A stretch of DNA of 64,000 bases from Ensifer adhaerens. Its GTDB lineage: Bacteria; Pseudomonadota; Alphaproteobacteria; Rhizobiales; Rhizobiaceae. The notes under the pieces were generated by a model that saw only the letters and a list, made by a program, of their open reading frames with translations, had not been told where the DNA came from and ran no database searches. The translations under genes and the position numbers were made by a program. The stretch covers positions 1 to 64,000 of the forward strand of contig NZ_CP083350.1 in the NCBI RefSeq assembly GCF_020035535.1. The letters are read 5' to 3'. Of the stretch, positions 6,869-47,674 are shown piece after piece. The stretch's first letter is position 1. Every line of letters starts with the position of its first letter.

Positions 6869-6902
6869 GACAGCTGTTCCTTTCATCAACCGGGGTGCGG
6901 TT

Positions 6903-7664
6903 CTAGTCGCCAGTCCCTTGGCCCGGCCGAGCCGGGTTGTACTGCGATCGTTCCTGACCGGAACCATCGAGAATGTAGCCGGACGATCGAACCGTGCGGA
7001 TGAGATCAGGGCCGCCGGTCACGCTCAGCGCCTTGCGCAGTCGACCGATATGAACATTCACCGTCTTGACGTCGACGAAACGGCGCTCGGGCCAACCAGC
7101 TTCAATGAGTTGTGCGCGACTGCACGCCTGCTCGTGGTTCTCCATCAGAAACTGCAGCAACCGGAATTCGATCGGTCCCAAGTGGACGTTGATGCCGAGA
7201 CGCCTGACGCTATGCCTGTTGGTATTCAGTTCAATTCCTGCATAGACGAGGATATGACCGTCGCTCGCCATCGGACCCGACACTCGCGGAAGGAGGATAC
7301 GGTCGCGTAGGAAGCTGAGCAGCTTGGAGGGGGTGATCGGTCTGACGAAATTCTCGTCAATCCCGGCCTTCAGCAGATCGATAAATCGACTTTCCGCACC
7401 AGGGCCAATCAACCCGACGGTCGTAATCCCGAATGTCCGCGGCTCCTGCTTCAGCTTTACACAGGCTGCGGGAGCCCAATTTTCTCCCGATCGACAATCA
7501 AGAAGAATGGCTCCGACATCGTACTCGCCTGCAAAATGGACGATCTCCTCGACCCCGGAACCAAGAATGACCTGATATCCCTCGGATTCCAGGATGTGGA
7601 CGAGTAGCAGATAGTAATCCGCATCGGTCGAACCGATCAGGATCTGCGGTCGCGCGGAATTCAA
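6903..7664 (-). CDS. OmpR/PhoB-type response regulator
   Basis: A 253-residue protein. Residues 1-120 form a receiver-like domain (PQILIGSTDADYYLLLVHIL; AILLDCRSG with a candidate phospho-Asp). The usual switch lysine is replaced in FVRPITPSKLL (normally K-P), so phosphorylation is uncertain. Residues 140-235 are a winged helix-turn-helix (VHLGPIEFRLLQFLMENHEQ, then TVNVHIGRLRKAL, and RTVRSSGYIL). The gene starts 24 nt after the AHL synthase stop, with no sensor kinase next to it. An AHL synthase partnered by an OmpR-type protein instead of a LuxR-type receptor is unusual. It may control synthase expression or be a downstream output. Confidence 0.88.
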   Translation of the reverse strand: MNSARPQILIGSTDADYYLLLVHILESEGYQVILGSGVEEIVHFAGEYDVGAILLDCRSGENWAPAACVKLKQEPRTFGITTVGLIGPGAESRFIDLLKAGIDENFVRPITPSKLLSFLRDRILLPRVSGPMASDGHILVYAGIELNTNRHSVRRLGINVHLGPIEFRLLQFLMENHEQACSRAQLIEAGWPERRFVDVKTVNVHIGRLRKALSVTGGPDLIRTVRSSGYILDGSGQERSQYNPARPGQGTGD

Positions 7665-7688
7665 AGACCTCTCCTCTATTGCGCAGCG

Positions 7689-8423
7689 TCAGTTGTGATC
7701 TGATCCCTCGTGAGGACCTGCATCGTCCTCTGTGGGCGGTGTGGCCGCTTGCGATAAATCGGCAGAAGGCGCTGTTCCACGCCGTGCCACCTCAAGCAGC
7801 GAAGTTGTGGTGCACATGTGTTCCTGGCGACAGGCAGCAGCGTGAACCCGATTAAGGCTCGCGGCGTCGGCAGGAAGCACGCCTGCTACGGCCATCGTGC
7901 TGCCGATGGGACACGGCCGACCAAGACGTTGCATCGGCCAGCCGGCGCGTTTCAAAATGCGCTCGAACCGCAGGTCCGTTGCCGTGACGATTTCATAATA
8001 GCCGTTCGCCATCGACCACTCGATGATGCCGGCAAACATCTCAAGCGTCGTCCCATGGAGAACTGCCCCCGTCCTGCCCTCGTCGAGCGCCGTGTCGACG
8101 CAAAAGCGCGAGCTTTCGACCATGCCTGGATGGGCTTCGAGCCGTCGCGATGAGAGGAGCTGCGGAAATGTATTGGCGAGCATCGTCGGCCCAGTAGCCG
8201 GGAGGAGCCTCGCGCAGCCCGCCACTGCACCTGTGGTAGAAACGGCCAGGATATAGGTGGGATTGAATTGATCGTAAGCATCGGCCTCACGATCGTCCCT
8301 TATGTCTACATCCCAGTCCAGTCTGTCGCCAAAGACTCGCGCACGCAACCGATGCATCGAGTCGATCAAGTCAGCAAATTCTCCGCGCGCTGCGGCCGGG
8401 ACAGCTAGTATCTCCATCTCCAT
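7689..8423 (-). CDS. Acyl-homoserine-lactone synthase (LuxI family)
   Basis: About 244 residues from the ATG at 8423 (MEMEILAVP), preceded by CGGAGA; the frame is open to an ATG at 8519. LuxI invariant features are present: RARVFGDRLDWDV (Arg, Phe, Trp), ADAYDQFNPTYILA (the Asp-Tyr region), GCARLLPATGPTMLANTFPQ and MVESSRFCVD (Glu, Ser-Arg-Phe). The enzyme joins an acyl chain to S-adenosylmethionine to make an AHL signal. The C-terminal 50 residues after ACRQEHMCTTT are extra and low in structure. No LuxR-type receptor is adjacent. The transfer gene traA follows 0.8 kb away, so control of conjugation by this signal is plausible but not shown. Confidence 0.93.
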   Translation of the reverse strand: MEMEILAVPAAARGEFADLIDSMHRLRARVFGDRLDWDVDIRDDREADAYDQFNPTYILAVSTTGAVAGCARLLPATGPTMLANTFPQLLSSRRLEAHPGMVESSRFCVDTALDEGRTGAVLHGTTLEMFAGIIEWSMANGYYEIVTATDLRFERILKRAGWPMQRLGRPCPIGSTMAVAGVLPADAASLNRVHAAACRQEHMCTTTSLLEVARRGTAPSADLSQAATPPTEDDAGPHEGSDHN

Positions 8424-8477
8424 TCTCCGAAGAAAACCTGCTTCAGACCACTGGACACGAGTTTCCGCGCTTAGGCG

Positions 8478-8492
8478 ACTAATAGAATTAGT
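8478..8492. promoter_or_regulatory. Palindrome upstream of the AHL synthase
   Basis: ACTAATAGAATTAGT is a perfect 6+3+6 inverted repeat centred 62 bp before the chosen synthase start. It lies between the divergent synthase and the gene at 8662, as an operator for a dimeric regulator would. It does not match the classical tra box. If the synthase began at 8519 instead, this site would lie inside its coding region. Confidence 0.4.
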
Positions 8493-8661
8493 AGTCGAGC
8501 GCTCGTCCAAAGCGTGCATGAATATCGCACGTATGAGTTGTCATACATCAGCGGTCTGTATCGAAAAACCGTGCACGAGCGTGCAGAGCCAAGGTGGCGA
8601 AGCCGCCGAGAGCCGAAATTGATAATTCAATGCGCGCGAGGATTTGCAGCAAGGAGTGCCG

Positions 8662-8988
8662 ATGTACAAGCATACCGCAGAAGCCTTCGTACCAGTCCAG
8701 AATGCGGAACAGGGCGTAAGCGAGGTCTTCGCCCGTTACCGCGAATACTGGAGCCCGATCGGCGCCACGGGGGTCGATCGGTCGCTGGACTTCGGTGACG
8801 CACGCGTGACGCTAAGGCCGACGGACGAGGGCTTGCATTTTCGGATAGACGCGCAGGACACCCTCGCCTTTTACGGTATCTGGACGCTTTTGCAGGTGGC
8901 CTTGGCCGCGCTACCGGAATTTACAGGTAAAGACGTTGGGTGGCACCCGGCCGGCCGGTTCCCGTGTCTGTCAAAGGTTTTTCCGTAG
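8662..8988 (+). CDS. Small protein resembling DUF2218
   Basis: A 108-residue protein with a clear AAGGAG site before the ATG at 8662; the in-frame ATG at 8644 lacks one. The pattern (helix with REYWSPIG, strands LDFGDARVTLRPTDEGLHFR, then IDAQDTLAFYGIWTLLQVAL) is like DUF2218 proteins, which bind no known ligand. The last 20 residues (GKDVGWHPAGRFPCLSKVFP) look unlike the family, so the original end may have been replaced. It is divergent from the AHL synthase and may share its control region. The family call is tentative. Confidence 0.5.
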   Translation: MYKHTAEAFVPVQNAEQGVSEVFARYREYWSPIGATGVDRSLDFGDARVTLRPTDEGLHFRIDAQDTLAFYGIWTLLQVALAALPEFTGKDVGWHPAGRFPCLSKVFP

Positions 8989-9265
8989 AATTCTATCACC
9001 TGATTCATAAACCGGAGCGTGATAAAAGTCTAAAGCTGGTGACGATGTCGCTGCGGAAATAATCGCGCTGCAGTCGCAGCCTGTGGCAACAAGGCAACAG
9101 AAATATTTCGTTGTGTCGAAGAGCCAGTGGGCTGCAATGACGCTTTCAATTATTACCGCCTCGCGCGACGAACTGCCGCGACTCTTTGAGGGATGTTGAT
9201 GCCGCGCCAGGCGGCAAGGACCGGCTGCCGAGACACCTGAGTGGATGAAGCTCTTTGAATTGCCT

Positions 9266-12200
9266 CTACCGCTCGACACCACGACCCCGATTGACCGCCT
9301 GTCGTTGGCGCTCGGAAACGATCTTCTGGCCGCGATCTGCCCGCACGATCTGCTGAAGAACCTTCAACTTCTCCTGCATTGCCTCGACTGCATTCCGTTG
9401 CGCTGTCGACACAAAGTTGAAAACGTCTTTGTTCCCACGCAGGAACGCGTTGCGGCCGAAGCGCTCGTCGAGCGCCCGGCTGACGGCGACGAATTCTTGG
9501 GCGACGCGCGGATCGGTCAGACCCGCAGCAACGTCGAGCCCCCGATTCTTCTTCCTCATTCTTGCCGTCAACTGCCGCAGCGTATCCTCAGCCTTCCGCG
9601 ATAGACCGGGAATGGCGACCGCCATATGCCGGCGCTCTGCGGCGATAGCCTTGGTCTCGACCTCAAACGCCGCGGCATAGGACGCTCCGAGAGAACGGAT
9701 ACAGCTTGCTACTTCCGACACAGCCTGAAGCGCGGCCCTCCGCTCCCGGCCGGCAGCAAGCAACTTGTCCACTGTGCGACCGGAGCCACGTAACGCTCCG
9801 TAAGCGGCCGGATCGTTGATGACGGCTGCGGCAATCCGCTCGCCGGCAAAACCCTTTTCGACAAGCTCCTCGATCTTGCCGACCGCGCCGGCCGGATCGC
9901 GCCAGATGCGTGTCGCCGCGTCCATGAACGCGGCGCGATGATGATTGTAATGGGGAACGGCAAGCGCCCTATCCCGCGCTTCATCGGCGACGGATGTCTT
10001 GAACTCCGTGACGGCGGCAAGCATGGGCAACACGTGCACTGCTTCATTTCCGAACTCGATGCTTGCGCCGGCAACGATTTTCGAGCGATCCTGCTTTTCT
10101 GCGAGATGCTGCTCGTCGCTAAAACGCCTGATCACCTCGAACAGACGCACCAGTTTTTCACGGTGGTCAGGCGCGAGATTTTCCGGCATTCGCTCGGCAA
10201 CATTTCGCTCGGCGATCGGATCGGCCCTCGCGGTGAAGGCAGACCAGCCAAAGCGTGAGGTCAACGCCTCGTTGACGGCCTTGACCTCTTGCACCAGCAA
10301 ACGGTCCTCAACGGCATAGGCGAAGGCCGTCTTGTAGGCATCGACCCCGCCGCGCTCCCGGACCGTCTCGACTTCGACGAGACGCGCCATCGCCTGTTTC
10401 GAAAGAGCGGGAATGGACAATGACATATCAGCGCGCCGCTGCTGCTCTCGGCTGGCGAAGCGCTCCGCCTGCCTGCGGAACTCGGTTGCATGCGCGCGCG
10501 CCAAAGGGAGCAGCTCCGATAAAGTGGCCATGGCCGCGTTGCGCTCGTTTCGAGCGGCGCGACCATCGACCATGAGGTCAGAGCCGCGCAATCGGCCAAG
10601 GCGTTCGGGCGCAAGGCCAAGATCTTCGGCGATCTTGCGCGGCTCGACGCCTGCGCCTGACGCCAGAGCGTTGAGCGCCGACAGCGCGCCGTCGGGGTCG
10701 CGATAGATTTTCTGCAGCAATGGCCGGAGTATTTCCTCCCGCTCCTTCCACCGTTCCGAGGAGAGCTGCGCGAGACGCGCATCCTCTTCAACGCTGCGGG
10801 GGAATTCGGTGGCGGGCGGGATCAAATAGCTTCCACCCAACGGGTTGCCGGCAGCGAAAGATACTCTGCGTTCCTCGCTGTACGAGACGCTCCGTTCCCG
10901 TTCGATCGCGAAATCAAGCGCCATGCTCGCCCGCTCCCAGAGCTTCGCCAGCTGCGACCGCTTCTCCGCAAGCCACGCCGACCATCGCGCCGCGCCCTCC
11001 TCCAATTCCGCAATGACCCGGGCAAGCGTGTCGATACCGCGCCGCTGGGCAAAATCAAGGGCATGCCCCCGATAGCCTTCCTCGCTTTCGAAATCGAGCG
11101 TCGTCGTCTTGGCGCCAGATCGCCCAAGGCGCTCAACAAGCTGTTTGAACACATGCGGCCGATGGCTTTCCTGCTCGATCCTAACTTTGCGCGCATCGGC
11201 AGTTTCAACTTGGGTTCCAGTCCAGACGTTACGCTCGACCTGACGTTCCTCGAGGCGCTTCTTGCCGGTCTTTTCATCAGTAATGGGCACCCTCACCGTG
11301 ACTGTTTCGACGCCATCCTTGCGTAGCGTCACAGTATCGCCTGTCGAGATACCACCCTCCTCAAGTGCCTTCGGCAGGCTCACGCCCCAAAGTCGATGAA
11401 CGATTCCGTCGTCCGTCCTCACATCGGCGTAGGGGCTTTCCTTGGCATCATCATCTTGCGGCCCGAACTTGGCCAACCCTGTGACCACCAATTCACCGGT
11501 GACGCCGGCTGCATGGTCGACACGGGGCCTGCGCCGCCATTGCGGCTTCGGTGCAAAGTTCTCGCGCGCCACGTAGAGATCGGCGCGGTTACGATGCCTG
11601 GTCATCGCCACATAGGTCAGATGCTGATCCATCATTCCGGTGGCGAGCACGAAGGTCCGGTCGATGGTCGAGCCTTGAGATTTGTGGATTGTCGCGGCGT
11701 AGCCGTGATCGACATTGCTGTAGCTATCCTCGCTGATCACGACGTCCCGGCCATTGTCGAGATGTACCGTCAGCAGCGCGTCTGCGCGTTTGTCGCCGGA
11801 TGAAACGACCGTGCCAAGCATGCCGTTCTTTACATATTGGGGACCAACCCGCTTTGCCCGTGGTTCAAGGAAGCGGGCGTTTTCGAGGAAGATGATCCGG
11901 TCGCCCGCGGCAAACTCACGAAGCCCACGTGCCGTTCGGAATTGGCGCGCACCTGTCAGCGCGCCCTCGTCGTTCATGACCCTGCGCAGGGCCTCGTTCA
12001 GCGTCCGAACGTCATCGTTGGTGTGGGCAAGCACAAGCAGTTCGTCGCCGCGAAGACGTCCCGGATACTCGCCCACGGCAGATTTCTGAAGCAGGTCACG
12101 GCGGGCATCGGCCCAATCGGCAACGATGCGGTCGATGATCTCGGCCTTGGTTTCGGTCTCGACAATGCGGCCCCTTTGCGCATAGGCATCGAGGCCCTCT

Positions 12201-13885
12201 TCAACCTTGCCGCGCGCGAACAGACGGGATGCATCGCGCGCCCACGCATCAAGCTGCCGCCGCACGCCGGCAAGTTCCGCAAAGCCGATCCGTTCAGTGA
12301 TTGCCCGGAACGCCGCACCCGCCTGGATCGGCTGCAACTGCATCGCGTCACCCACGATCACGACCTTCGCCCCCGCGTCCTCGGCTGCCTTCAGGACGCT
12401 CGCCATCTGCTGCGAGGGGATCATGCCGGCCTCATCGATCACCAGCACATCACCGCGGTCGAGCTGCTCGCGCCCGCCGGCCCAAGCTAATTCCCACGAC
12501 GCCAGCGTGCGCGACATGATGCCGGAGCTGTTCTCCAGCCCTTCGGCAGCCTTGCCGGCAAGGGCCGCGCCGATCACCCGTCGACCGTCGCTTTCCCATG
12601 CGACGCGGGCCGCCGAAAGCAGCGTCGACTTCCCGGCGCCGGCAAGCCCGACGACCGCCGCGATGGCATTATCGCGCGTGACATGACGGACCGCATCGAC
12701 CTGTTCCGCATCGAGCCTGAAGGACTTTTCCGGATCGGCCGTTTCGACGCTTCGGACGGCGGCGGCGGCCTTGGCACCGGAGACGCCGAAGCCCTTTCGC
12801 ATCGACAGAACCTCGGCTGACTCCGCCATGTCATATTCGATGCGCAGGATCTCCCGCGTTGTGAACACCGCCGGCTCTGTCGCATTGCCCATTTGGGTGT
12901 CGACCTGCTGCGCCTTCAGCAGTACCAGGTCGTCCGAAGCCATGAGCCGCGCGCGGATATTGGCGAAGTCCACTGGATCATCGACATAGCGGTGCAGCGC
13001 CTTGGCGATATCGCGCTCGTCAAAGGTGGAACGCTCGTTGCGGAGCTGCTTGAGGAGAAGCTCCGGATCGGCAAGCAGCCGGTCGGCCATCTCCTGCCGC
13101 CGCGCGAGATCGGCCGGCGCGAAATACATCTCGGCACCCTTGCGCGCGAGCGCCGCCTTCTCCGGACCAAGGTGTTTCTGCGCGATCCCACCGAGCCCTT
13201 GCTCAGCATAGGAGCGGCCGTCGAGACGGATCTCATGGCCGGCAAGGGCCAGGTGCCGGTTGACGGTTTCAGCCCAGGCGACCTTCCACGCCATCATGGT
13301 TTCCTTGTCGCCTGCCCAAAGCTTGTAGACAATTTTGCCATTCGGCCGGTCCGGCGTGACGACACGCAAAGGCTCGCCGTCTTCGCCCAGCACCGCCACC
13401 TTCTTCGGCCCAAACCCCTCCTCCGTCAGTGGCCTCAGCGTCGTCATCAGATGGATGTGCGGATTGCCGTCCTTGTCGTGAAACACCCAGTCGGCGATCA
13501 TTCCCTTCGATGTGAAATTATCCCGGACGAACTCGCGCACCAGCGCGATGTTCTCCGCCCGCGTCAGCTCTTCCGGCAAGGCGATGATCAACTCCCGCGC
13601 AAGCTGTGCGTCCGCCCGCGTTTCGAACGCATCCACTGCATTCCAGAGCGCCTCGCTTGCCTCGGCAACAGATTGCCCGTCCATCGCCGCCCGAAGCCAG
13701 CCCGGGATATCGTCCGGCAGCGCCAGTTCCTCATGCACCAGCTCGGAGGCTCCGCCGCGATAGCTGAAGGAAGACCCGGCCTGCTCGTCCATCATCCGGA
13801 CACGGTGGCGATAGGCGGCAGCCGAGATGACGCTGCGTCCTGCACCCCTGCTGATCACCTGCGCTCTGACGAACATGATCGCCAC
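9266..13885 (-). CDS. traA: Ti-type conjugative relaxase TraA
   Basis: About 1,539 residues from a GTG at 13885 (VAIMFVRAQVISRGAGRS) with GGAGG 7 nt upstream. The first 250 residues are a MobA/MobL relaxase: the metal-binding DKDGNPHIHLMTTLR lies near residue 140. A RecD-like helicase follows, with Walker A VVGLAGAGKSTLL (about 415), DVLVIDEAGM (about 480) and HKSQGSTIDRTF. A long charged C-terminal region completes the protein, matching the longer TraA of symbiotic plasmids. It nicks and unwinds plasmid DNA at oriT. The gene reads away from the oriT just upstream of its start, divergent from traCDG, as in pTi and pSym. Confidence 0.95.
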   Translation of the reverse strand: MAIMFVRAQVISRGAGRSVISAAAYRHRVRMMDEQAGSSFSYRGGASELVHEELALPDDIPGWLRAAMDGQSVAEASEALWNAVDAFETRADAQLARELIIALPEELTRAENIALVREFVRDNFTSKGMIADWVFHDKDGNPHIHLMTTLRPLTEEGFGPKKVAVLGEDGEPLRVVTPDRPNGKIVYKLWAGDKETMMAWKVAWAETVNRHLALAGHEIRLDGRSYAEQGLGGIAQKHLGPEKAALARKGAEMYFAPADLARRQEMADRLLADPELLLKQLRNERSTFDERDIAKALHRYVDDPVDFANIRARLMASDDLVLLKAQQVDTQMGNATEPAVFTTREILRIEYDMAESAEVLSMRKGFGVSGAKAAAAVRSVETADPEKSFRLDAEQVDAVRHVTRDNAIAAVVGLAGAGKSTLLSAARVAWESDGRRVIGAALAGKAAEGLENSSGIMSRTLASWELAWAGGREQLDRGDVLVIDEAGMIPSQQMASVLKAAEDAGAKVVIVGDAMQLQPIQAGAAFRAITERIGFAELAGVRRQLDAWARDASRLFARGKVEEGLDAYAQRGRIVETETKAEIIDRIVADWADARRDLLQKSAVGEYPGRLRGDELLVLAHTNDDVRTLNEALRRVMNDEGALTGARQFRTARGLREFAAGDRIIFLENARFLEPRAKRVGPQYVKNGMLGTVVSSGDKRADALLTVHLDNGRDVVISEDSYSNVDHGYAATIHKSQGSTIDRTFVLATGMMDQHLTYVAMTRHRNRADLYVARENFAPKPQWRRRPRVDHAAGVTGELVVTGLAKFGPQDDDAKESPYADVRTDDGIVHRLWGVSLPKALEEGGISTGDTVTLRKDGVETVTVRVPITDEKTGKKRLEERQVERNVWTGTQVETADARKVRIEQESHRPHVFKQLVERLGRSGAKTTTLDFESEEGYRGHALDFAQRRGIDTLARVIAELEEGAARWSAWLAEKRSQLAKLWERASMALDFAIERERSVSYSEERRVSFAAGNPLGGSYLIPPATEFPRSVEEDARLAQLSSERWKEREEILRPLLQKIYRDPDGALSALNALASGAGVEPRKIAEDLGLAPERLGRLRGSDLMVDGRAARNERNAAMATLSELLPLARAHATEFRRQAERFASREQQRRADMSLSIPALSKQAMARLVEVETVRERGGVDAYKTAFAYAVEDRLLVQEVKAVNEALTSRFGWSAFTARADPIAERNVAERMPENLAPDHREKLVRLFEVIRRFSDEQHLAEKQDRSKIVAGASIEFGNEAVHVLPMLAAVTEFKTSVADEARDRALAVPHYNHHRAAFMDAATRIWRDPAGAVGKIEELVEKGFAGERIAAAVINDPAAYGALRGSGRTVDKLLAAGRERRAALQAVSEVASCIRSLGASYAAAFEVETKAIAAERRHMAVAIPGLSRKAEDTLRQLTARMRKKNRGLDVAAGLTDPRVAQEFVAVSRALDERFGRNAFLRGNKDVFNFVSTAQRNAVEAMQEKLKVLQQIVRADRGQKIVSERQRQAVNRGRGVER

Positions 13886-26829: not shown

Positions 26830-27100
26830 CGTTGGAGGGACACAGCGCGCTGTTTTTTATACGGGCTCAATCCGGCAGATTGATCTGCTGTATTTTCATT
26901 TAACCTAAGGGCGGGCAAGGCGTAGAGCCCGCGCACCCCTTCAGATGGCGTTCGTCGGAGACGGCAGAATGAGGCGGTAGAACTGGGACGGCGATTAGAT
27001 TTCTGATTTGCTTAAATTGCAATCGAGGGCTACATTGAAAACATAGGTCACACTTTGCCGTTGACCACGGATGTACTGGCATCGGCATGGTGCGATCACG

Positions 27101-27125
27101 AAAGGTCGGGTTTAGCCCGGCCTTT
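27101..27125 (+). terminator. Rho-independent terminator without an obvious gene
   Basis: AAAGGTCGGG-TTTAG-CCCGGCCTTT, with one G-T type pair, followed by a T run to 27127. It has the classical form for the plus strand. The decayed gene ending near 26829 is the only candidate coding partner. Confidence 0.75.
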
Positions 27126-27238
27126 TTTGTGGGATGACGCTTTTCGTGGTCCTGTGCCCGCCGCCAATTTGCTTCGCGGAGCCGTTTCAAAGCAAAACCA
27201 CCGCTCCCCGTCGAGAGGTTGCTTTCGATAAGAATAAA

Positions 27239-28386: not shown

Positions 28387-28898
28387 CGACGGACCTCCTT
28401 CGCGCGGACGACGCCGGATTCAGTGAAAAGATGGGGTTTCAAAACAGAAATGCGCACGACCGAAGGGGCACATGCGTGAGGCATGAGATCAGTTTTCATG
28501 AGAGCTAATCCGCCGGCTAATTTGCTGGCGGTACCGACATCACGAGAGCGCCGTAAAAACTCTCGCCAGAGGGGCCCGGCACCAGTGTTCATCCCGCGGT
28601 CCGATGTCTGGAGACGGGAGCACTTTTCTAATTAGCAGCGTCCGGTGGAAGGTCAAGGGGGCACCGGCGCCCGGGCGCCCTTCTCCCATTTGGAGAAGCC
28701 GGCTGCAGCGGCGCCGTGCCCCCTCCGTCGGCCGGAGGCAGGGAATTGGAGCAAACCAAACGAGCCCGGCTGCGGCTCTATGCATCTGTTGAACAGATAC
28801 TCCGATTCATTCGCAAAACTTATGGTTCCATATGCAGACAGCAATGGATCGACTGGGCGGAATGTGGCATGGCGTGCGCAACTTTCTGAAGGCCGGAT
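28387..28898. other. 512-bp region between divergent DUF475 and EamA genes
   Basis: It carries the DUF475 leader. On the minus strand there is a stem near 28510-28531 (CCGCCAGC / GCCGGCGG with one mismatch) and a 6-bp CGAGAG/CTCTCG repeat at 28543-28565. A 14-bp perfect palindrome GGCGCCCGGGCGCC is at 28666-28679. No gene is seen. Confidence 0.5.
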
Positions 28899-39121: not shown

Positions 39122-39660
39122 CGCAATCGCGCTATGGCATATCTGGAGTACCGACCTTTGTCGCGCTATAGCGAGGCCGTCAGAAGACTGCGCCTGAGTC
39201 TGGGCGATATACCCGACACGGATCGTACGCAATCGATCACGCTCGTCGGCTATGCCGGGCGAAGGCAAGACTGGCACTCAGCCTTGCTTACTCTGCTGCC
39301 GCAGACGGCGAACGCGCCCTGGTCATCGATGCCGATCTCAGGGTTTCGGCTACCACCGCCTTCTTTGGCATGACGGAGAAGTCGATCTTCTCACGCTCCC
39401 GATCGATCCGGCCAAGGCAATCCACCTGGATGAGCGCTTGGCATTCACGTTCTGCCAGCTGGCGCAAAAGCAGTGAACCCTCCCGCCCTTCTCGCATCGG
39501 CGCGCATGCGATCGCTCGTCAACGAGTTCCGGGCCACCTATGACACCGCGATCATCGATGCGCCGCCGGTCGGCCCGGTGGCAGACGCCTCCATTCTTGC
39601 CGGCCATTCCGACAAGGCCGTCTTCGTCGTGAAGTGGCGTGACACGTCGTGCGAGCATCA
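39110..39660 (+). pseudogene. Remains of a bacterial tyrosine kinase / ExoP-like chain-length protein
   Basis: Pieces of the cytosolic kinase domain lie in different frames: YLEYRPLSRYSEAVRRLRLS and TQSITLVGYAG, a Walker A-type MPGEGKTG near 39252, then NPPALLASARMRSLVNEFRA followed by TYDTAIIDAPPVGPVADASI and GHSDKAVFVVKWRDT. The last is the Walker B region (D-A-P-P-V) of BY-kinases used in exopolysaccharide export. The membrane part is absent and several frameshifts occur. Confidence 0.7.
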
Positions 39661-39950
39661 TCCATGGCGTGCACATCCTGCCTTTCGTGCATATCGTCAC
39701 CGCCCAGAAGCTCAACATTCCTTGCAGCCGAGCGTCTGACCGCCCGGTTCACGCGCGCCTTCATCGACGATTTCCCACCATATCGGCAGCCCCGCGCAGC
39801 ACTCTCGTTCATTCGGGTTTCGACCTGACGCGCTTCTCCGAGGCCAATTGGCCGAATGAGGCGCCGCGGCTTCTCGGCATTGCGCCAGGCGCGCCCAAGC
39901 CACCGGTCGTGTTGATGCTGGCGGCGCTTGAGGAGCCTCAATGGCGAAAA
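39660..39950 (+). pseudogene. Fragment of a family 4 glycosyltransferase
   Basis: One frame reads ERLTARFTRAFIDDFPPYRQ. A second, from 39801, reads TLVHSGFDLTRFSEANWPNE, then APKPPVVLMLAALEEPQ. The H-S-G-F-D-x-x-R-F and V-L-M-L-A-A-L-E-P sequences are typical of the hinge of GT4 enzymes that build polysaccharides. The rest is missing. It is another piece of the lost polysaccharide locus. Confidence 0.55.
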
Positions 39951-39964
39951 GGCCGTCGCCGCAC

Positions 39965-40659
39965 TCATTCATGGCCGGAATGTCGATTTTGTCCCTCACC
40001 GTCGGCGACAACGTCTATGCGGCCCCGGGGCGTAATGCAGTCTTTGCCGGCCACGAACACAACTACTACCGAGAAATCCGGGACGATAATGGAGACGGAC
40101 TGCAGCTCCCCTACACGACAACCGGTCTCGGCGGCGCGGGCCGCGATGTCCACAATGTCGGCGCCAGCCTTTTGACGATCACCGATCAGCGCATGCTAAT
40201 CGAGTTCTACACCGTCACGAGTTCAACGGGACGACCACGACCAGTTCCCTCACGGACTCCTTCTTCATCGCAACGGCAGGCCGTGTGCCGACCATCGCCA
40301 ATGCGGCTATGTGCTGAACGGCACCACAGGCGACGACTATCTCTGGGGACTTGGAAGCAATGCAACGCTAACGGGCGGACGCGGCAGATACGCTGGTCGG
40401 CGGCAAGAACAACAATTTGTTCGTTTTCCAGGTCGGCGACGGCAACGACACGATCCTGAACTTCCGCGCCGGCGCTGCAACGGGCGATCTCCTCAATCTG
40501 CGGGCGTTCGGCATCGACAGCGGCAGCGAGTTCCGCCAGGTGGCAGCGATCCAAGGCGCGAACGTGGTCGCCAACCTCAGCAGTACGGACCCCCTGACAT
40601 TGTTCGGCGTGCGTGCCGAACAGCTCCACGACGACAACTGGTCAGGCCTGCTTGTCTGA
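39965..40659 (+). pseudogene. Secreted metallophosphoesterase with RTX tail, frameshifted
   Basis: The N-terminal piece has VFAGHEHNYYREIRDDNGDG, then LQLPYTTTGLGGAGRDVHNV, the G-H-x-H metal site of calcineurin-like phosphoesterases. A frame change near 40220 gives TTTTSSLTDSFFIATAGRVP. The next frame has NGTTGDDYLWGLGSNATLTG, and a last one ADTLVGGKNNNLFVFQVGDG, then NDTILNFRAGAATGDLLNLR to a stop at 40659. The glycine-aspartate repeats are calcium-binding RTX motifs of type I secreted proteins. Three frameshifts and a missing start make it a pseudogene. A strong terminator follows. Confidence 0.7.
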
Positions 40660-40762: not shown

Positions 40763-40784
40763 AAGCCGGCATTTCTGCCGGCTT
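40763..40784 (-). terminator. Terminator for the leftward precursor/NTase/kinase unit
   Basis: AAGCCGGCA-TTTC-TGCCGGCTT is a perfect 9-bp stem. On the minus strand it is followed by CTTGCTTTT. It lies about 50 bp after the stop at 40837. Confidence 0.75.
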
Positions 40785-40836: not shown

Positions 40837-41142
40837 TCATTTTTTGTGTTTCCAAAAATCGAGCTCCAGGTTCACGAATTTCTTCAGCTGCCCCGGCGGT
40901 CCGTAGTGAACGTGGTTTTTGTCGCCCCACCCGTTTCCCGGCTTCGGGTTGTATTTCGGGTGAGATCCACTGGATTTGGCAATGGCGCGCGAACTCAGGC
41001 TGGTGCCAAGCAACAATGTGATGGCCGGAGGGGTTACGGCAGCAAATTTTCCCGCCTTCATGAGAAAATTCCGGCGCGCTTCCGCTTCCGTATTAAGTCT
41101 TTCTGGCGATTTGTCTACGCCTTTGTGAGTATCTATCGACAT
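40837..41142 (-). CDS. Small protein with twin-arginine-like leader, candidate substrate of the adjacent modifying genes
   Basis: 101 residues from the ATG at 41142 with AGGAAG 6 nt upstream. After a polar start (about 22 residues) comes EARRNFLMKAGKFAAVTPPA, then ITLLLGTSLSSRAIA: an R-R-x-F-L motif and a hydrophobic stretch ending in a possible cleavage site. The remaining 45 residues (KSSGSHPKYNPKPGNGWGDK, NHVHYGPPGQLKKF, ending FWKHKK) are rich in Gly, His, Pro, Lys and aromatic residues, with no Cys. It is the last gene of a unit with a nucleotidyltransferase and a PqqD-HPr-kinase fusion. It is probably exported or membrane-held and may be the modified product. Confidence 0.75.
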   Translation of the reverse strand: MSIDTHKGVDKSPERLNTEAEARRNFLMKAGKFAAVTPPAITLLLGTSLSSRAIAKSSGSHPKYNPKPGNGWGDKNHVHYGPPGQLKKFVNLELDFWKHKK

Positions 41143-41236
41143 GACACTTCCTTTTTTTTGCGCGGACTTTGACTGTTAGAAGATTTTATCATTTCGTACA
41201 TTAGAATTCAATCGACGATTTAGGCGCATAAATACT

Positions 41237-42238
41237 TTAAATCTTCGAGCGAAGATCTTTGTTCAGGAGAACCGTCGTTATTCTGCGGGCCAGATGGATT
41301 GGATCCCGTCGGGCCAGGTCGTGGACGCGTGAAAACCGCCTTGCGCCCCAGTACAGGTTGCCGGCCAGGCGCAAGGGCGCACCGAGGATTGGATGACTTG
41401 AGGCAAAGACACGTCTCCAATGTTGGAACCTGATCGTCGGGCTCGCGCCAAAGCCAAGCGGAATGCTCGTCCCGAAGAAGCGGTTCAGGGTCAACAACTG
41501 CGTCTCGATGGCATTGCGTGCGCTTTTGCCCTGAAGCGCCCCACGAAGCGCAGCCCAGTCGACGGGTTCGCTCTCGGCCAGTTGCGCCAGATCATACAGA
41601 TGCCTGAGGTCAATCCTTCCGCGCCAGTAGTCCCCTTCCTTGAGGAGGTCGTGCACGATCCAGTGCAGGGCACGCGACTGTGGAGAAGCGATTTTCACCA
41701 GGAGCTCACCCCGCTGCACGAGCTTCGGGCGTCCAAAGCCATCCGCACGATACGGTCGCAACTCCAGCACCCCCACGTCCTGGTCGCGCACCATCCCGCG
41801 ACCGTCGGAGAGGCAGACATAGCCCAGCTCTTCCAGACAGGCTTGAGCCAACGGTTCGTCGCGCGCTGCAACAGCCAGGTCGATGTCGCTGGTTATTCGG
41901 TCCGGAACGGTTTGGGAAAGAAACAATGGAATCGCCCCCTTCAAGAGAACCGGAGCAACGCCCATAGCGTTCAGAGCGGCGATGGCTTCGTTCAGCTGCG
42001 ACCGCAGGCGCATGTTGCGTTCTCGATTGCAGTCGCGAATGAAGTGGAGGTACTCCCGTACGTCATTCGGAACGTGCTCAATGGCACCGGCCTGTTCGAG
42101 TGATGCAAACAGGGCAGGCGTGAGCAACGTTTGGTTCGCCAGTGCCATCACCGCCGGCCAGTCCAGCCGGTCAGCGACGCGGCCGTGTAGCCCCGTGATC
42201 AGGGCGTCGAGTGGGTTTTTGGCGGACTTCATGCGCAT
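41237..42238 (-). CDS. Nucleotidyltransferase-fold protein (PF14907 type)
   Basis: 333 residues. The helical N-terminal half leads to the nucleotidyltransferase core: LNAMGVAPVLLKGAIPLFLS, then DRITSDIDLAVAA, with the D-x-D metal site near residue 116. A C-terminal helical region (HWIVHDLLKEGDYWRGRIDL, RHLYDLAQLAE) follows, as in the uncharacterised nucleotidyltransferase family linked to lasso-peptide and HPr-kinase-related clusters. It probably transfers a nucleotide or phosphate-containing group to a peptide, protein or sugar. The start overlaps the end of the upstream kinase fusion by 10 nt. The small leader protein follows 94 nt later. Confidence 0.8.
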   Translation of the reverse strand: MRMKSAKNPLDALITGLHGRVADRLDWPAVMALANQTLLTPALFASLEQAGAIEHVPNDVREYLHFIRDCNRERNMRLRSQLNEAIAALNAMGVAPVLLKGAIPLFLSQTVPDRITSDIDLAVAARDEPLAQACLEELGYVCLSDGRGMVRDQDVGVLELRPYRADGFGRPKLVQRGELLVKIASPQSRALHWIVHDLLKEGDYWRGRIDLRHLYDLAQLAESEPVDWAALRGALQGKSARNAIETQLLTLNRFFGTSIPLGFGASPTIRFQHWRRVFASSHPILGAPLRLAGNLYWGARRFSRVHDLARRDPIHLARRITTVLLNKDLRSKI

Positions 42239-43338
42239 GCCCGCTCAATCAGCGCGACTGCCTCATCCAGGTCGGAATAGGTCAGACGGTAGGCTTTCAC
42301 CGACCCTATGACGCCAGCGAGCACATCGAAGCTGGTGTCGCCCAACTCACCGCCAGGCGCAAACGCCCCACCAAGCAGGCCCCGCAGAACATCCACCGGG
42401 TCGATCTTGTCCAGGCTCGGCTTCGCGACGCGATCCCGATGGAGGAGGACGACAGAGCCTACCTGCCACGCTTTTGCGGTCGCCGCGTTGGCCATCCTTG
42501 GTACGGGGTAGCGCACACGACGCTTGTCCGGACGGCGGAAGATCGGCGTTGCATCGAGGTCGGGGAAGCGCTCCGCGAGCAAGGGCCATGCGCCCGATTT
42601 GACCGCGGGCGCGAACGGAAGACCGACACAGCGCCCGTCGGCTTTCAGCAGTGTTACGTCATCCGATGCGAAGCCGAACCCGGCATGGGCCAACGCCAGC
42701 GTCAAGGTCGTCTTGCCCGCCCCCGGGTCGCCGCAGAGAAGGACAAGGCGCTCATTTTTCAACAGCGCGGCCGCATGAAGAGCCAGTTCGTAAGTGCCGG
42801 AGCCGAGGATATCGCTCAGCATTTCCCCTTTCAATATTGTCGCCATTTCGTCCGGAGCCGACGCCAGCAGCCAGTCGCCATTGCGAAACAAATGGAGCCG
42901 GTCACCCTGCTCCACGAACTGGAACACGATGTCGGGAGTGCCCTCCCCGATTTCGAGATGCCTGAAGATGGCCATCGTCGGAAAGGCGTGAGCGATCGGA
43001 TAGAGGATACTGATACGGCGCCCGGCAACGCTCAGCATCTGGCTCACATGCCCTTGAGCGGAACTGTCGAGCGGTGAGATGCGCGGCCGGATCAAGCCCA
43101 GGCGCTGCCAGTCCTTTATCGCCGCTTCGACTTGTCCATGCACATCCCGGGCGTTGAGTCTGGCATGCGCGCCGGCTTCCGCCTGCTTTCCCTGCTCCAA
43201 CAGGCGCCAGATGTCAGCGGCCGTGTCGTTCAGGGTAAAGATCGCGTGCTGCGACGCACTGAATAGAATATTCTGCCCCCTGATCCGCACAAGTCGCGCC
43301 TGAGTGACGAAACGCGGGGACGTACCGTCGCCGCGCAT
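42229..43338 (-). CDS. PqqD-like domain fused to an HPr-kinase-like domain
   Basis: About 369 residues from the ATG at 43338 (MRGDGTSPRFVTQARLVRIR); the frame is open to 43434. Residues 10-90 match a PqqD-type peptide-binding domain: FSASQHAIFTLNDTAADIWR, then LLEQGK. Residues 130-365 match HPr serine kinase-like proteins: ALLKNERLVLLCGDPGAGKT with Walker A near residue 200, then FGFASDDVTLLKADGRCVGL. Such kinases occur in lasso-peptide and HprK-rel-A clusters, where they phosphorylate a peptide or partner. Fusion of the recognition and kinase parts suggests it binds the substrate leader itself. It heads the unit with the nucleotidyltransferase and small protein. Confidence 0.82.
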   Translation of the reverse strand: MRGDGTSPRFVTQARLVRIRGQNILFSASQHAIFTLNDTAADIWRLLEQGKQAEAGAHARLNARDVHGQVEAAIKDWQRLGLIRPRISPLDSSAQGHVSQMLSVAGRRISILYPIAHAFPTMAIFRHLEIGEGTPDIVFQFVEQGDRLHLFRNGDWLLASAPDEMATILKGEMLSDILGSGTYELALHAAALLKNERLVLLCGDPGAGKTTLTLALAHAGFGFASDDVTLLKADGRCVGLPFAPAVKSGAWPLLAERFPDLDATPIFRRPDKRRVRYPVPRMANAATAKAWQVGSVVLLHRDRVAKPSLDKIDPVDVLRGLLGGAFAPGGELGDTSFDVLAGVIGSVKAYRLTYSDLDEAVALIERACA

Positions 43339-43402: not shown

Positions 43403-44659
43403 TTACTCGGCCGGCGTTCCTGCCAATCCGGCAAAGACCTTGGGATTGCGCACGAGCCGCCAACACAGCCACGGGCCTGTGGCGAACGAGGTCAGGATCG
43501 AGGCAAGTACAAGGGCCGTGAACATGCGGCCGTCGATGATGCCAGCCGTGAGCGCCACGCTGGCGAGCACGATGCCCGGACCGCCTCGCGTGTTCATGGA
43601 GATGCCGTAGTCGAGCGCCCTCGCCCAGTCGCAGTCGGCGGCTCTTGCGGCCAGCGTACAACTCACAAGCTTGATGGTCGTGGTCATGCCGATGAACAGA
43701 ACTGTCAGCCCGACATCGAACTCCTGTGCGAGATTGAGCCGTTGCCCCACGAGCGCGAAGTAGATCGGCACAAAGAACCAGATCGCGATATCGGCGATGT
43801 GCTGTTTGACCGGAGCGAGATGCCGCGAAGGAAACCGCGCCATGACGAGACCGGCAACGAGCGCTGCGAAAACGATGTTCACGTTCAAAAGGCTCGCCCC
43901 GGCGACGAAGATCAGACACAGCAGCATGGTGTAGCCGGTGAAGGGCGCCTCGCTGAATTTGCCGATGATCCATCGCCGAAGCGCCCTGACGACTGTAGGC
44001 GCGAAAAACAGCGAGGCGAGCACAAAACCGAGCGTGATGGCGACCACGCGGCCGATGCCGGCAGCGCTTGCCGCCTCGCCATGCTGGACAGCAGTGGCGA
44101 CGGCAAGGATCGTCCAGAGGATGAGATCCTGTATCGTCGCCGCACCGATAACGTTGAGCGCGAAGGGTGTCCCCATCAGGCCCAGATCGAGAAACAAGCG
44201 CGAGATGACCGGGATCGACGTGACGGCGGCGGCGATGCCCATCACCAGTTTGAACGCGAAGGGATCGCCAAGCTAGGTGTCGGCAAAAAAAGAGGCACTC
44301 GCATAACCGAGCGCGAACGGGATCATCAGCGCACCGACCACCAACGCCAGTACGATCCGGCCCGCAGCCCCGCCTCCTGCTGCCTGAACCTTGAAGCCCG
44401 CCGTGAACATCAAAAGAACGAGGCCGAACCAATAGAAGGCTTTCAAGAGGGCGGCCTGCGCCGGGAAGGCAGCAAACAGCGACTGATGTGCCTCGGGCGA
44501 AATCGCGCCGAGCACCGATGGGCCAAGGACGATGCCACCGGCGATCTCGCCGATGACCCGCGGCATCTTCAACCGTTCGAACAACTGACCGCCGGCCAGC
44601 GCCGCAATGAGCAGCAGTACCAGCGACAGGAAGAACTGGGCGGTTTCGGAATCGCTCAT
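43403..44659 (-). pseudogene. CPA2-type cation/proton antiporter with one in-frame TAG
   Basis: The first segment starts MSDSETAQFFLSLVLLLIAA, then LAGGQLFERLKMPRVIGEIA and GPSVLGAISPEA, the usual Kef/CPA2 opening. After FFADT there is a TAG at 44273-44275. The same frame then continues LGDPFAFKLVMGIAAAVTSI, then PVISRLFLDLGLMGTPFALN to the end at 43403, with all later helices intact. A change from TGG or CAG to TAG would explain this. The gene is probably inactive unless the codon is read through. It follows the APS kinase on the same strand. Confidence 0.85.
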
Positions 44660-44712: not shown

Positions 44713-45291
44713 TTACGCACGTCCGTCAATCCGGGTGTAGGTGGCAACGACACGGGCTGCGAGTTCGTCAAGCGAATAGATTCCCGTGTCAAGGATGAAG
44801 TCGGGGTTTGCCGGTGGCCGGTAGGTGCTGTTGTAGCCGATGAGGGTATCGATCTCGCCGCGTAAAACCGTGCCGTAAAGCCCCTTTGGATCTCTTTCCG
44901 CGCAGCCTTGGATCGAGCTGGCAACGTAACCGGTCGTCAGGTTTATGACGTTCTTGCGCACATAGGCACGGGCATCCTCGCCGGCTGTCAGTGCGGCGAC
45001 GACCACATGAAGGCCGGCCTCCGCCGCCTTGTTCGCCAGATGCGCGAGAATGGAAACGACTTGCAGCCGGCTTTCCGGACCAAAGCCAAGCTGCGTGCCA
45101 AAGAAGCCCCGGACTTCGTCGCCATCGAAGACGATGGCGGGAATCCCGGCCGTCCTCAGATCGGCGACGACACGCGTCGCAAGCGTCGTCTTGCCCGCCG
45201 ACGTGGGGCCAAGCAGCCACAGTACTGTTCCAGCCTGTATCGAAACGCGATGGTGGCGCGTCCCGGACTGTAGATGTGTCCTTCCCTGCAT
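44713..45291 (-). CDS. cysC: Adenylyl-sulfate kinase (CysC-like)
   Basis: About 192 residues from the ATG at 45291 with GGGAGG upstream. Walker A is LWLLGPTSAGKTTLATRVVA, with Pro-Thr-Ser in place of the usual G-L-S-G-S-G. The DGDEVRGFFGTQLGFGPESR motif is the APS-binding signature, and VASSIQGCAERDPKGLYGTV follows. The enzyme makes PAPS, the sulfate donor for sulfated polysaccharides or signals. The ATP sulfurylase gene directly upstream is ruined, so APS must come from another locus. The nearby polysaccharide remnants suggest a former sulfation system. Confidence 0.85.
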   Translation of the reverse strand: MQGRTHLQSGTRHHRVSIQAGTVLWLLGPTSAGKTTLATRVVADLRTAGIPAIVFDGDEVRGFFGTQLGFGPESRLQVVSILAHLANKAAEAGLHVVVAALTAGEDARAYVRKNVINLTTGYVASSIQGCAERDPKGLYGTVLRGEIDTLIGYNSTYRPPANPDFILDTGIYSLDELAARVVATYTRIDGRA

Positions 45292-45329: not shown

Positions 45330-45815
45330 TTCATCATCAACTCGGCCCGAACGACGTCTTGTACCTCGGAGCGCATCATCCAATCGGTAGCGCTTCGCCG
45401 GCCCTGAGGCGCGTCGGATTTCCGTCCCGCTGATCGGGCTGGCCGTTCCCAGGCGCTCAGGTCGACATAGCGTTCGGACTGGTGTCGTAGCCGACGGCAC
45501 CGAAGAAGATTGGCTCGATGCCGATGTCACCGAGTTCGCCTTGACGCTGTAGAAGTCACCGACACCGGAATGATCGCGCCCGACATGATATGGCTGCAAC
45601 CCATGTTCTTGCGGCATATCGCGGTAAACACCGCCTCACGGGGCCGGCAAATCGCGGACAGGTGGTGAAGCTCGCCAGCACTACCTTTCCGGCGGGGTAG
45701 ATGCCGTAGTCCAGCATCGCCTGATAGCCGTCGAGGATCACATGCGGCAGAAAATCGTCGCGCTTGGTATGCCCGACGATTGGGTTCACCAAGAGGCCGT
45801 CGGCATAGGTTCATT
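45330..45815 (-). pseudogene. sat: ATP sulfurylase (sat), C-terminal part, frameshifted
   Basis: Pieces in three frames restore one sequence: NPIVGHTKRDDFLPHVILDG, then YQAMLDYGIYPAGKVVLASF, then EAVFTAICRKNMGCSH, then GRDHSGVGDFYS, and GDIGIEPIFFGAVGYD. G-R-D-H with the N-P-x-V-G-H-T-K loop is the hallmark of sulfate adenylyltransferase. The N-terminal two thirds is absent and replaced by the beta-helix remnant, and at least two frameshifts occur. It stood directly before the APS kinase, as in sat-cysC operons. The 3' limit is approximate. Confidence 0.78.
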
Positions 45816-46483
45816 CCAGGACCTCCAGCTGAATCCTCTCATGACCGCGAGGTCATAGCGCCTGCAGGGCAAGAGCCACGGCTTGGCCAGGAAGGCCTGC
45901 ATCCGGATCAAGGAGCGTTCAATCGCAACGACTTGGTCGCTCCAGTCACGATCATTCGAACCAGGGTCGAGACTTATTCCCGAGAAGCAGCCATCAAACA
46001 GGCAATCCTCGATGGTACCCCCGCGCAGGTAGTCATCCTCCACCGCACCGTCCCGGATCTCGCTCAGCCAGCAGCCTTTGAGGAGGAAGCCGTTCGCCTG
46101 GGCTGTGAGACGGATGCCATCCCAGCACCGGCACGCCCGCACACCTTCGATTGTTGGCCGCGTCGTTCCCTCTTTGACGAGCAGGCCGGCACTGTTTGCG
46201 TAGGTGTTCGCCCAGTCCGACTGAAGCGGCACTTCACCATTGACGCGCCCGCCGACGAAATGAACGCTGGGCAATTGCGAGGAACGATCGGATAGGGATT
46301 GACCGGCCGCATACCGATGTCGCAGCCGAGGACTGCGTTCGGAGCGGTGTTTCGGCTGTTGGCAACAGTGAAGAGCGCCCGTATGGCATCGACCGCGCCG
46401 GCAATCCGTGGAGCGCCCGGAAACCAGATCGACGCAATCAGCAGGAGAAGTGAGATTTGAAGCAAAGGTCGCTTGGTCGACAA
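45816..46483 (-). pseudogene. Secreted parallel beta-helix protein, frameshifted
   Basis: From the ATG at 46483 a signal peptide is clear: MSTKRPLLQISLLLLIASIW. Near 46280 the frame is lost and the protein continues in another: VHFVGGRVNGEVPLQSDWAN, GLLVKEGTTRPTIEGVRACR, CWDGIRLTAQANGFLLKGCW and GGTIEDCLFDGCFSGISLDP. The short turns with Gly, Asn and Asp are those of right-handed beta-helix proteins (pectate-lyase or polysaccharide-lyase-like). The 3' end runs into the sat remnant. Its role was probably on extracellular polysaccharide. Confidence 0.6.
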
Positions 46484-46882: not shown

Positions 46883-47674
46883 TCAGCGCTGTCGTTGGCT
46901 GAAGCCGTCTGCCGAAGGATCACCGGGGAAGAGATCGTTTATCTTGTAGGCAACTTCGGTTCTGTTCGTTGCCTTGATCTTCTTCATGATATTGCGGATA
47001 TGAACCTTGACGGTGCTTTCACGCAGGTTGAGTTCATACGCGATGATCTTGTTGGCCTTTCCACGTCGCAGAGCTTCAACCACTTCCGCCTGGCGAGCCG
47101 TGAACATGCCGGCAAGCGGCCGCGCGGCCGTATTGCTTGTCTCCAGCAACTGACGCATGGCGAATACACTGCTGGCCGGCACGAAAATGCCGCCGGCCAA
47201 GGCAAGGTAGACAGCCTCAATGCACACATCAACGCTGACGGAGGAAGGGATGTAGCCCTTCGCGCCACATTCAAGCGCCTTCATGATTGGGCCAAGCTCT
47301 TCCGTGTCTGCCAGGACAATGACCGGCGCCGGCTCGAATTCCGACGACAATCTGCGAATTTCTTCGGCGACGGTTGGTTCAGATGCCTTTCTGCCGCCGA
47401 TGTTCAAGAGGATCGCAGATAGTTTTGGCCAATGACTGTGTCGCTGTCGCCATTCCTCGATCGATCCAAGGGCCAGCACTCGGATCTCCGCCTTGTGGGC
47501 GACGATGCTTTGTGCCAAGCATTGCCGGTCAAGCGCACGACCATCGATGATAACCAGCAAGTGTTCCTGCTGTGCTGATGCCTCTTGGGGCACCCCGGCA
47601 GTTTCGAAATGTTCGCCGGACAATTGCACGGTATCGCTAGACAATTGCTTTCCATTCGATTTTTTTAAGATCAT
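46883..47674 (-). CDS. LuxR/NarL-type regulator with degenerate receiver
   Basis: 263 residues. Residues 40-165 fold like a receiver (LLVIIDGRALDRQCLAQSIV, then APVIVLADTEELGPIMKALE and CGAKGYIPSSVSVDVCIEAV). At the phosphoryl site the sequence is AILLNIGG, Asn instead of Asp, and the switch Lys is absent. Residues 190-255 are the LuxR helix-turn-helix: FTARQAEVVEALRRGKANKI, then IAYELNLRESTVKVHIRNIM. Such proteins act without phosphorylation and often control exopolysaccharide genes in rhizobia. The neighbouring polysaccharide genes are decayed, so present targets are unknown. Confidence 0.88.
   Translation of the reverse strand: MILKKSNGKQLSSDTVQLSGEHFETAGVPQEASAQQEHLLVIIDGRALDRQCLAQSIVAHKAEIRVLALGSIEEWRQRHSHWPKLSAILLNIGGRKASEPTVAEEIRRLSSEFEPAPVIVLADTEELGPIMKALECGAKGYIPSSVSVDVCIEAVYLALAGGIFVPASSVFAMRQLLETSNTAARPLAGMFTARQAEVVEALRRGKANKIIAYELNLRESTVKVHIRNIMKKIKATNRTEVAYKINDLFPGDPSADGFSQRQR

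Follow-up and report, generated by a model that had tools for sequence, protein, structure and literature searches.

What might a kinase fused to a peptide-binding domain, a nucleotidyltransferase, and a 101-residue protein with an export-like leader make together? Three leftward genes raise this question in a 64,000-nucleotide stretch of Ensifer adhaerens (assembly GCF_020035535.1, contig NZ_CP083350.1, positions 1 to 64,000), the whole of which is referred to below as the window. An initial annotation, made from the letters alone, described the genes as one unit and proposed a phospho- or nucleotidyl-modified exported polypeptide. We recovered the same coordinates, strand, and order, as well as the 10-nt overlap between the first two genes (42229–42238), and our analysis supports the proposed interpretation. 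With a probability of roughly 55%, the genes encode a pathway resembling those of ribosomally synthesized and post-translationally modified peptides (RiPPs), in which the small protein would be the substrate. The three genes are as follows.

42229..43338, minus strand: fusion of a PqqD domain (a RiPP recognition element, RRE) with an HprK-rel-A-like kinase, 369 residues, starting at the ATG at 43338.
41237..42238, minus strand: PF14907 nucleotidyltransferase-fold enzyme (NTase), 333 residues, identified by profile match.
40837..41142, minus strand: candidate precursor, 101 residues, with a leader (residues 1–55) and a 46-residue predicted mature part; under purifying selection.

The trio as a whole is under purifying selection. 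Ratios of nonsynonymous to synonymous substitution rates (dN/dS) were 0.06–0.18 for the three genes in comparisons with Ensifer sesbaniae (L017), Sinorhizobium chiapasense (L226), and a further relative (L003); against a fourth (L032), the two enzymes gave 0.17–0.19 and dS was saturated for the small gene. The small protein on its own gave 0.06–0.16 against the three relatives with finite dS and retrieved 245 homologues at E ≤ 0.001 from a search of 5.8 billion proteins, and it is therefore the product of a real gene. Among the 120 homologues listed, any names given were hypothetical or uncharacterised; most came from Ensifer, Sinorhizobium, and Mesorhizobium, and some from Bradyrhizobium, Rhizobium, and Pararhizobium. 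A Pfam scan of the small protein gave nothing at E ≤ 1, and its single NCBIfam match, TIGR04117, fell far under the cut-off (E 0.26).

The first gene encodes the fusion that had been described, with an intact Walker A motif (CGDPGAGKT). The expected PqqD-like N-terminus was borne out by a PF05402 match at residues 26–85 (27.3 bits; cut-off 23.4) and by the profile of the fusion alignment, which found the lasso-peptide leader-binding proteins TbiB1 (5v1u; E 2.9e-4, positions 11–93) and TfuB1 (6jx3; E 0.004) in the PDB. Both the gathering score and the similarity to leader-binding RREs thus place this domain among the RREs. In the kinase domain, the residues H189, K210, D227, and D228 (alignment numbering, one higher than the count from the ATG) were invariant in 42/42 sequences; a His-Lys-Asp-Asp motif is reported as essential for lasso-peptide kinases in the available sections of PMC9266682. 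The structure model of the fusion (pLDDT 88.4) and its profile both led to HPr kinase 3tqf (Foldseek E 8.8e-5; profile E 5.7e-5), with PEPCK ranking higher in Foldseek (E 2.0e-8); these fold searches covered the kinase part. P-loop, invariant residues, and fold all point to an HprK-type kinase. The match to TIGR04352 (HprK_rel_A) was significant (E 8.9e-22), but its 77.5 bits fall well short of the 200-bit cut-off, and TIGR04353 (PqqD_rel_X) was not among the best 25 of the 31 NCBIfam families listed for the fusion. The HprK likeness would also suit an HPr kinase module of the phosphotransferase system. We rejected this very improbable assignment: a separate HPr_kinase_C gene scoring over its cut-off lies on another contig (C1), next to HPr and EIIA-man genes, and no HPr gene occurs among the ten window neighbours scanned.

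The second gene encodes a nucleotidyltransferase, as first described. PF14907 matched it at 87.4 bits (cut-off 31.2), the D-x-D motif is intact, the fold is that of nucleotidyltransferases, and the invariant residues include K100, D118, D120, H196, D197, and D216. An improbable explanation is that such an enzyme belongs to an AbiEii-like toxin-antitoxin or defence unit; PF14907 scores far higher, and the small protein resembles an export precursor. PADLOC matched none of the three proteins, on which ground a defence or toxin-antitoxin role was rejected.

The third gene has the architecture expected of a precursor. Its previously noted features, R-R-N-F-L, an uncharged stretch, and a Gly/His/Pro/aromatic tail, are all present, and a signal-peptidase site is predicted after residue 55 (AIA|KS), which would leave a Gly/His/Pro-rich mature part. 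A twin arginine, hydrophobic residues after it, an uncharged stretch, and an AxA site make up the motif of substrates of twin-arginine translocation (Tat), and TatC is encoded in the genome. Across 22 diverse aligned rows, R23, R24, F26, G31, F33, A34, P38, P39, A53, A55, and S57 were among the invariant residues; the core varied across the same rows, with types that include P-G-x-G-W-G-D-K-N-H-x-H-x-G-P-P-G, G-N-N-G-x-G-N-G, His/Asp-rich tails, and Pro/His/Lys repeats. Conserved leader and variable core, encoded beside an RRE and enzymes, are the arrangement of a RiPP system. The leader pattern was passed by 106 of 115 distinct precursor sequences (nine were dropped, three of them the false hits L106–L108), and A-x-A-x-S was present in 102 of these 106; in the other four, one is masked by N, one retains the Ser, and two lack it. 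Predicted mature parts of the 102 had a median length of 32.5 residues, and for five of these parts, four of them distinct, the Ser two residues past the AxA site was the sole Ser, Thr, or Tyr.

Several observations concern the diversity of these precursors. One locus (L212 in genome G535, represented also by L220 and L223) carries three tandem precursors with Cys-rich cores behind the same type of leader, so the chemistry of the core may vary. In Ensifer sp. Root278, a precursor (L056:9749–10198, plus strand) contains an exact repeat of a leader segment. When other reading frames of the loci were searched for the core motif, a single match emerged, GNNGHGNG in an 817-residue collagen-like GATG-repeat frame near a detached precursor (L042:17689–20139, minus strand).

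We next considered the company that the precursor keeps, using 78 precursor loci from named genomes, the best of 213 confirmed stretches, with up to 10 kb on each side. The claim that the small protein travels with the other two genes held well: the fusion lay alongside in 41 loci, and the NTase in 40 of these, the sole exception (L088) being cut by a contig end. Gene order was kinase fusion, NTase, small gene in 36 of the 41, some with an extra precursor; in two (L090, L092) the precursor was divergent from fusion and NTase, and single loci had the orders NTase, small gene, fusion (Microvirga, L082), small gene, fusion, NTase (Sphingomonas, L078), and small gene, fusion at the contig end (L088). 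The remaining 37 loci were detached small genes, and a full-length fusion was found elsewhere in 24 of the 26 searched genomes that carry them. The genome of the window itself has two cassettes and three precursors, and one cassette may serve several dispersed precursors. In a sample of 397 genomes from the order, all ten with strong precursor matches (E ≤ 2.6e-12, the window's own genome included) had the fusion at E < 1e-40; weaker precursor matches (G303, G193, G336, and G395; E 6e-5 to 7e-4) were left out, and in G303 precursor and fusion genes stand side by side. Of 336 further draws from the class, three had both, three the precursor only (G570, G578, G748), and one the fusion only (G767), at thresholds of E ≤ 6e-7 for the precursor and E < 1e-40 for the fusion, with the weaker G580, G631, and G789 left out. 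At least G078, G118, and G153 were in both samples. The pooled Fisher test for co-occurrence gave p ~1e-22, a value that ignores relatedness and uses thresholds chosen after the lists were seen. Judged from sequence, fusion, NTase, and small protein are linked as one set, with core peptides that differ between bacteria.

The association with twin-arginine-like proteins extends to more distant kinases. In a phylum sample of 329 genomes, 68 matched the fusion profile at E ≤ 1e-15, the matches listed being mostly to the kinase part alone. We inspected 42 loci (20 plus 20 picked by hand from the hits, with the plasmid regions L225 and L226) and called a kinase in 39. Applied mechanically, a twin-arginine rule picked out a gene no more than two places from the cassette in 24 of the 39 loci; 28 of 159 such neighbours satisfied it, compared with 8 of 228 other genes (p 3.7e-6). 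One locus, L250, belongs to the canonical HPr-rel-A systems (TIGR04352, 395.6 bits; TIGR04353, 66.5 bits); its companion, twin-arginine-like and 169 residues long, is encoded directly upstream at 3355–3864, and PqqD starts at 3870, the kinase at 4214, and the NTase at 5134. Such companions matched no family in NCBIfam (0/5) or Pfam (0/9). A conserved further partner near the distant kinases, such as a protease or transporter, was sought and rejected, as at most 3 of the 99 neighbours shared any one Pfam family among the best 25 of 119 families listed. These distributions suggest, without proving, that twin-arginine-led polypeptides are a general substrate of the related kinases. A broader possibility, to which we give somewhat less than even odds, is a RiPP-like class in which such polypeptides would serve the whole HprK-rel-A/PqqD/PF14907 group, throughout Proteobacteria, as substrates that have so far gone unrecognised; the leader would act as both RRE tag and Tat signal, cores would be phospho- or phosphoglycosyl-modified before export, and the window peptide would be among the smallest forms. 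Separately, the minus strand of L177 (~6076–12358) holds two kinases and four twin-arginine-led frames that share the leader D-R-R-Q-V-L-K, a possible precursor amplification.

Upstream regions of the precursors were also compared. In Mesorhizobium and its kin, the element AAGCCTTTTGGAGAACTA, allowing up to four changes, precedes 20 of 43 cassette-linked and 20 of 37 detached precursors, and has 42 matches in total on both strands of 2.89 Mb of loci. It was not seen upstream of the precursor gene in the window, and a promoter common to all precursors was rejected, given its presence before 40 of 80 upstream regions. Around the window's precursor lie two candidate signals, each a consensus match only.

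41183..41211, minus strand: promoter-like TTGAAT-17-TAAAAT, located between NTase and precursor; TG precedes the second hexamer.
40763..40784, minus strand: terminator-like hairpin 3' of the precursor.

Promoter-like sites numbered two in 3 kb compared with 0.7 expected, and terminator-like hairpins four compared with 3.6 expected.

Three known systems resemble the trio in part. Like HPr-rel-A systems (TIGR04352, TIGR04353), it combines PqqD, an HprK-related kinase, and the same kind of nucleotidyltransferase, and a clear member of that group, L250, also adjoins a twin-arginine-like gene. In the window, however, PqqD and kinase form one protein and the precursor has a tiny mature part, in contrast to the larger companion in L250; since the kinase missed its cut-off, we did not file the trio as HPr-rel-A. 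The pseudomycoidin and paeninodin lasso-peptide kinases and PsmN share an HprK-type kinase with the His-Lys-Asp-Asp residues, a nucleotidyltransferase homologue, and an RRE-type leader binder, according to the available parts of PMC9266682 and PMC8498205, which also describe how PsmK and PsmN equip pseudomycoidin with a phosphate and then a hexose. This shared set is what a lasso-peptide cluster has in its favour, the least probable explanation weighed here. The trio differs in that the kinase is fused to the RRE, the leader resembles a Tat signal, and the candidate Ser lies near the mature N-terminus and not at the C-terminus. The initial annotation had seen no lasso cyclase or protease, and likewise we found no asparagine-synthetase-like cyclase or B2 protease among ten window neighbours or ten from L030, L038, and L020, nor any lasso cyclase or protease among the recurrent neighbour families (best 25 of 119 listed); because of this lack, a lasso assignment was rejected. 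Bufferins and other MNIO RiPPs share a leader that doubles as export signal, modification before export, and an RRE-type partner; theirs are Sec signals with mostly Cys chemistry by MNIO enzymes, as opposed to the twin-arginine-like leader, kinase, and NTase here (PMC12452194, as far as available). In the parts seen, this 2025 survey regards leaders of the signal-peptide kind as "highly unusual" among bacterial RiPPs and treats Sec leaders and some of the lipoprotein type. Neither "Tat" nor "twin-arginine" appears as a word in its main text. No description of the cassette's function, and no established unrelated function for the trio, turned up in the literature searched, with most subscription journals outside its coverage.

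Taken together, we favor a RiPP-like pathway because the genes are linked in varying order, most of the searched genomes with detached copies have the fusion, and the two co-occur in the samples; because a conserved leader precedes a variable core, A-x-A-x-S is conserved, the kinase residues are invariant, and the RRE matches hold; and because of the PsmK/PsmN precedent, the AAGCCTTTTGGAGAACTA element before precursors, the twin-arginine-like neighbours of related kinases, and TatC. In such a pathway, the PqqD domain would bind the twin-arginine-like leader in the cytoplasm and hold it while the kinase adds a phosphate to the precursor. The likeliest acceptor would be Ser57, the conserved Ser at the second position after the predicted AxA cleavage site. 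The NTase-fold enzyme may then cap the phosphate with a further group, which could be a hexose, by analogy with PsmN and pseudomycoidin, or a nucleotidyl or sugar-phosphate group. Tat export and removal of the leader by signal peptidase would finally place the 46-residue peptide outside the inner membrane.

Several observations weigh against this pathway. TIGR01409, the curated NCBIfam Tat model, did not match the window protein at E ≤ 1 and matched 2 of 10 relatives, both under the cut-off; "twin-arginine-like" is therefore the right wording, and predicted Tat export rests on conservation of the motif. Two distant precursors (L115, L122) lack the proposed Ser. The 78 loci are not independent, because Mesorhizobium and Ensifer dominate them. 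Among genomes with detached precursors, G439 has only a 51-residue N-terminal fragment of the fusion, and in G434 the match covers only some of the kinase part; a fuller search of the precursor-only genomes found fusion fragments in G578, a 42-residue kinase-part match in G570, and nothing in G748. Conversely, G045 and G281 of the order sample have the fusion and no precursor match, G281 having a different twin-arginine-led protein beside it. Fifteen of the 39 distant kinase loci fail the mechanical twin-arginine rule, five of which (L164, L166, L170, L226, L240) were rescued by eye. The AAGCCTTTTGGAGAACTA pattern was derived from the same sequences in which it was counted, and the element may mark a shared promoter or may have been copied when the precursor was duplicated with its flank. 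The miss of TIGR01409 also suits a decidedly unlikely rival, namely that the small protein stays unmodified, twin-arginine-led or membrane-anchored, while the fusion controls its level or folding, with no role for the PqqD domain beyond that of a chaperone; the available parts of PMC8498205 ascribe a chaperone role to PqqD-like B1 proteins. Against this rival stand the catalytic residues of both enzymes, invariant in the alignments, and the conservation of the AxA site with its following Ser.

Finally, we examined the surroundings of the trio, which lies within what is left of a surface-polysaccharide/RTX locus, a setting that the initial annotation did not mention.

39506–39739, plus strand: remnant matching a chain-length protein of the Wzz/tyrosine-kinase type (66% identity to L054 across 50 residues; no Pfam match of its own), probably part of the decayed locus.
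40417..40659, plus strand: C-terminal remnant of a giant cadherin/RTX-type protein (81% identical to the L017 gene across 81 residues; no match of its own in a Pfam scan); in relatives, this protein comes after the precursor.
43403..44659, minus strand: Na/H exchanger split over two frames; a single frame of 418–483 residues in L017 and L030.
44713..45291, minus strand: adenylylsulfate (APS) kinase, open frame, a context gene.
45786..46274, minus strand: beta-helix protein of the surface-polysaccharide locus, reduced to a remnant.
46883..47674, minus strand: LuxR-type regulator with relatives in the same locus elsewhere.

Compared with L017, the window locus is reduced by internal deletions, in addition to the split antiporter and the beta-helix and RTX remnants, and the trio is intact. 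Among the 41 cassette loci, Wzy_C and beta-helix proteins were both present in 25, a cadherin/RTX-type protein in 25, and all three in 23; Wzx was found in 20, a sulfotransferase in 15, a pyruvate-kinase/ATP-sulfurylase protein in 10, APS kinase in 10, an ABC-transporter cluster (mixed, not all HlyB-like) in 14, and HlyD-like proteins (named by eye) in 13. Close to the genome's second cassette are genes that the cluster labels name as HlyB-, HlyD-, beta-helix-, Wzz-, and Wza-like. In Ensifer and Mesorhizobium, the cassette probably serves the surface-polysaccharide/RTX locus where it is mostly found. This setting raises the strongest of the rivals, itself unlikely, in which the target of both enzymes would be a sugar or lipid intermediate of the polysaccharide, leaving the small protein as only a helper or scaffold that is exported. 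It is countered by the PqqD domain, which points to a peptide substrate, by the 13 of 41 cassette loci with none of six polysaccharide-locus clusters (c3–c6, c8, c11; some stretches are short), and by the window locus itself, which is down to remnants around a trio still under purifying selection. An obligate polysaccharide role is disfavoured because of these 13 loci and the decay of the window's own locus. Elsewhere in the window, Rfam matches above the gathering score were found at 28525–28587 (minus strand) and 27001–27131 (plus strand), to terC RNA (RF03067) and the alphaproteobacterial small RNA ar35 (RF02346), respectively.

A modified, exported peptide would give a widespread and uncharacterised kinase/nucleotidyltransferase system a concrete, testable substrate. 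Sinorhizobium meliloti strain Ak57 has an annotated cassette, with its precursor labelled "hypothetical protein", and a genetic test is therefore within reach. If the RiPP-like pathway is true, its products would be a new class of peptides that leave by a Tat-like signal and carry a phosphate-based decoration, and peptide modification would be tied to the surface-polysaccharide loci of rhizobia.

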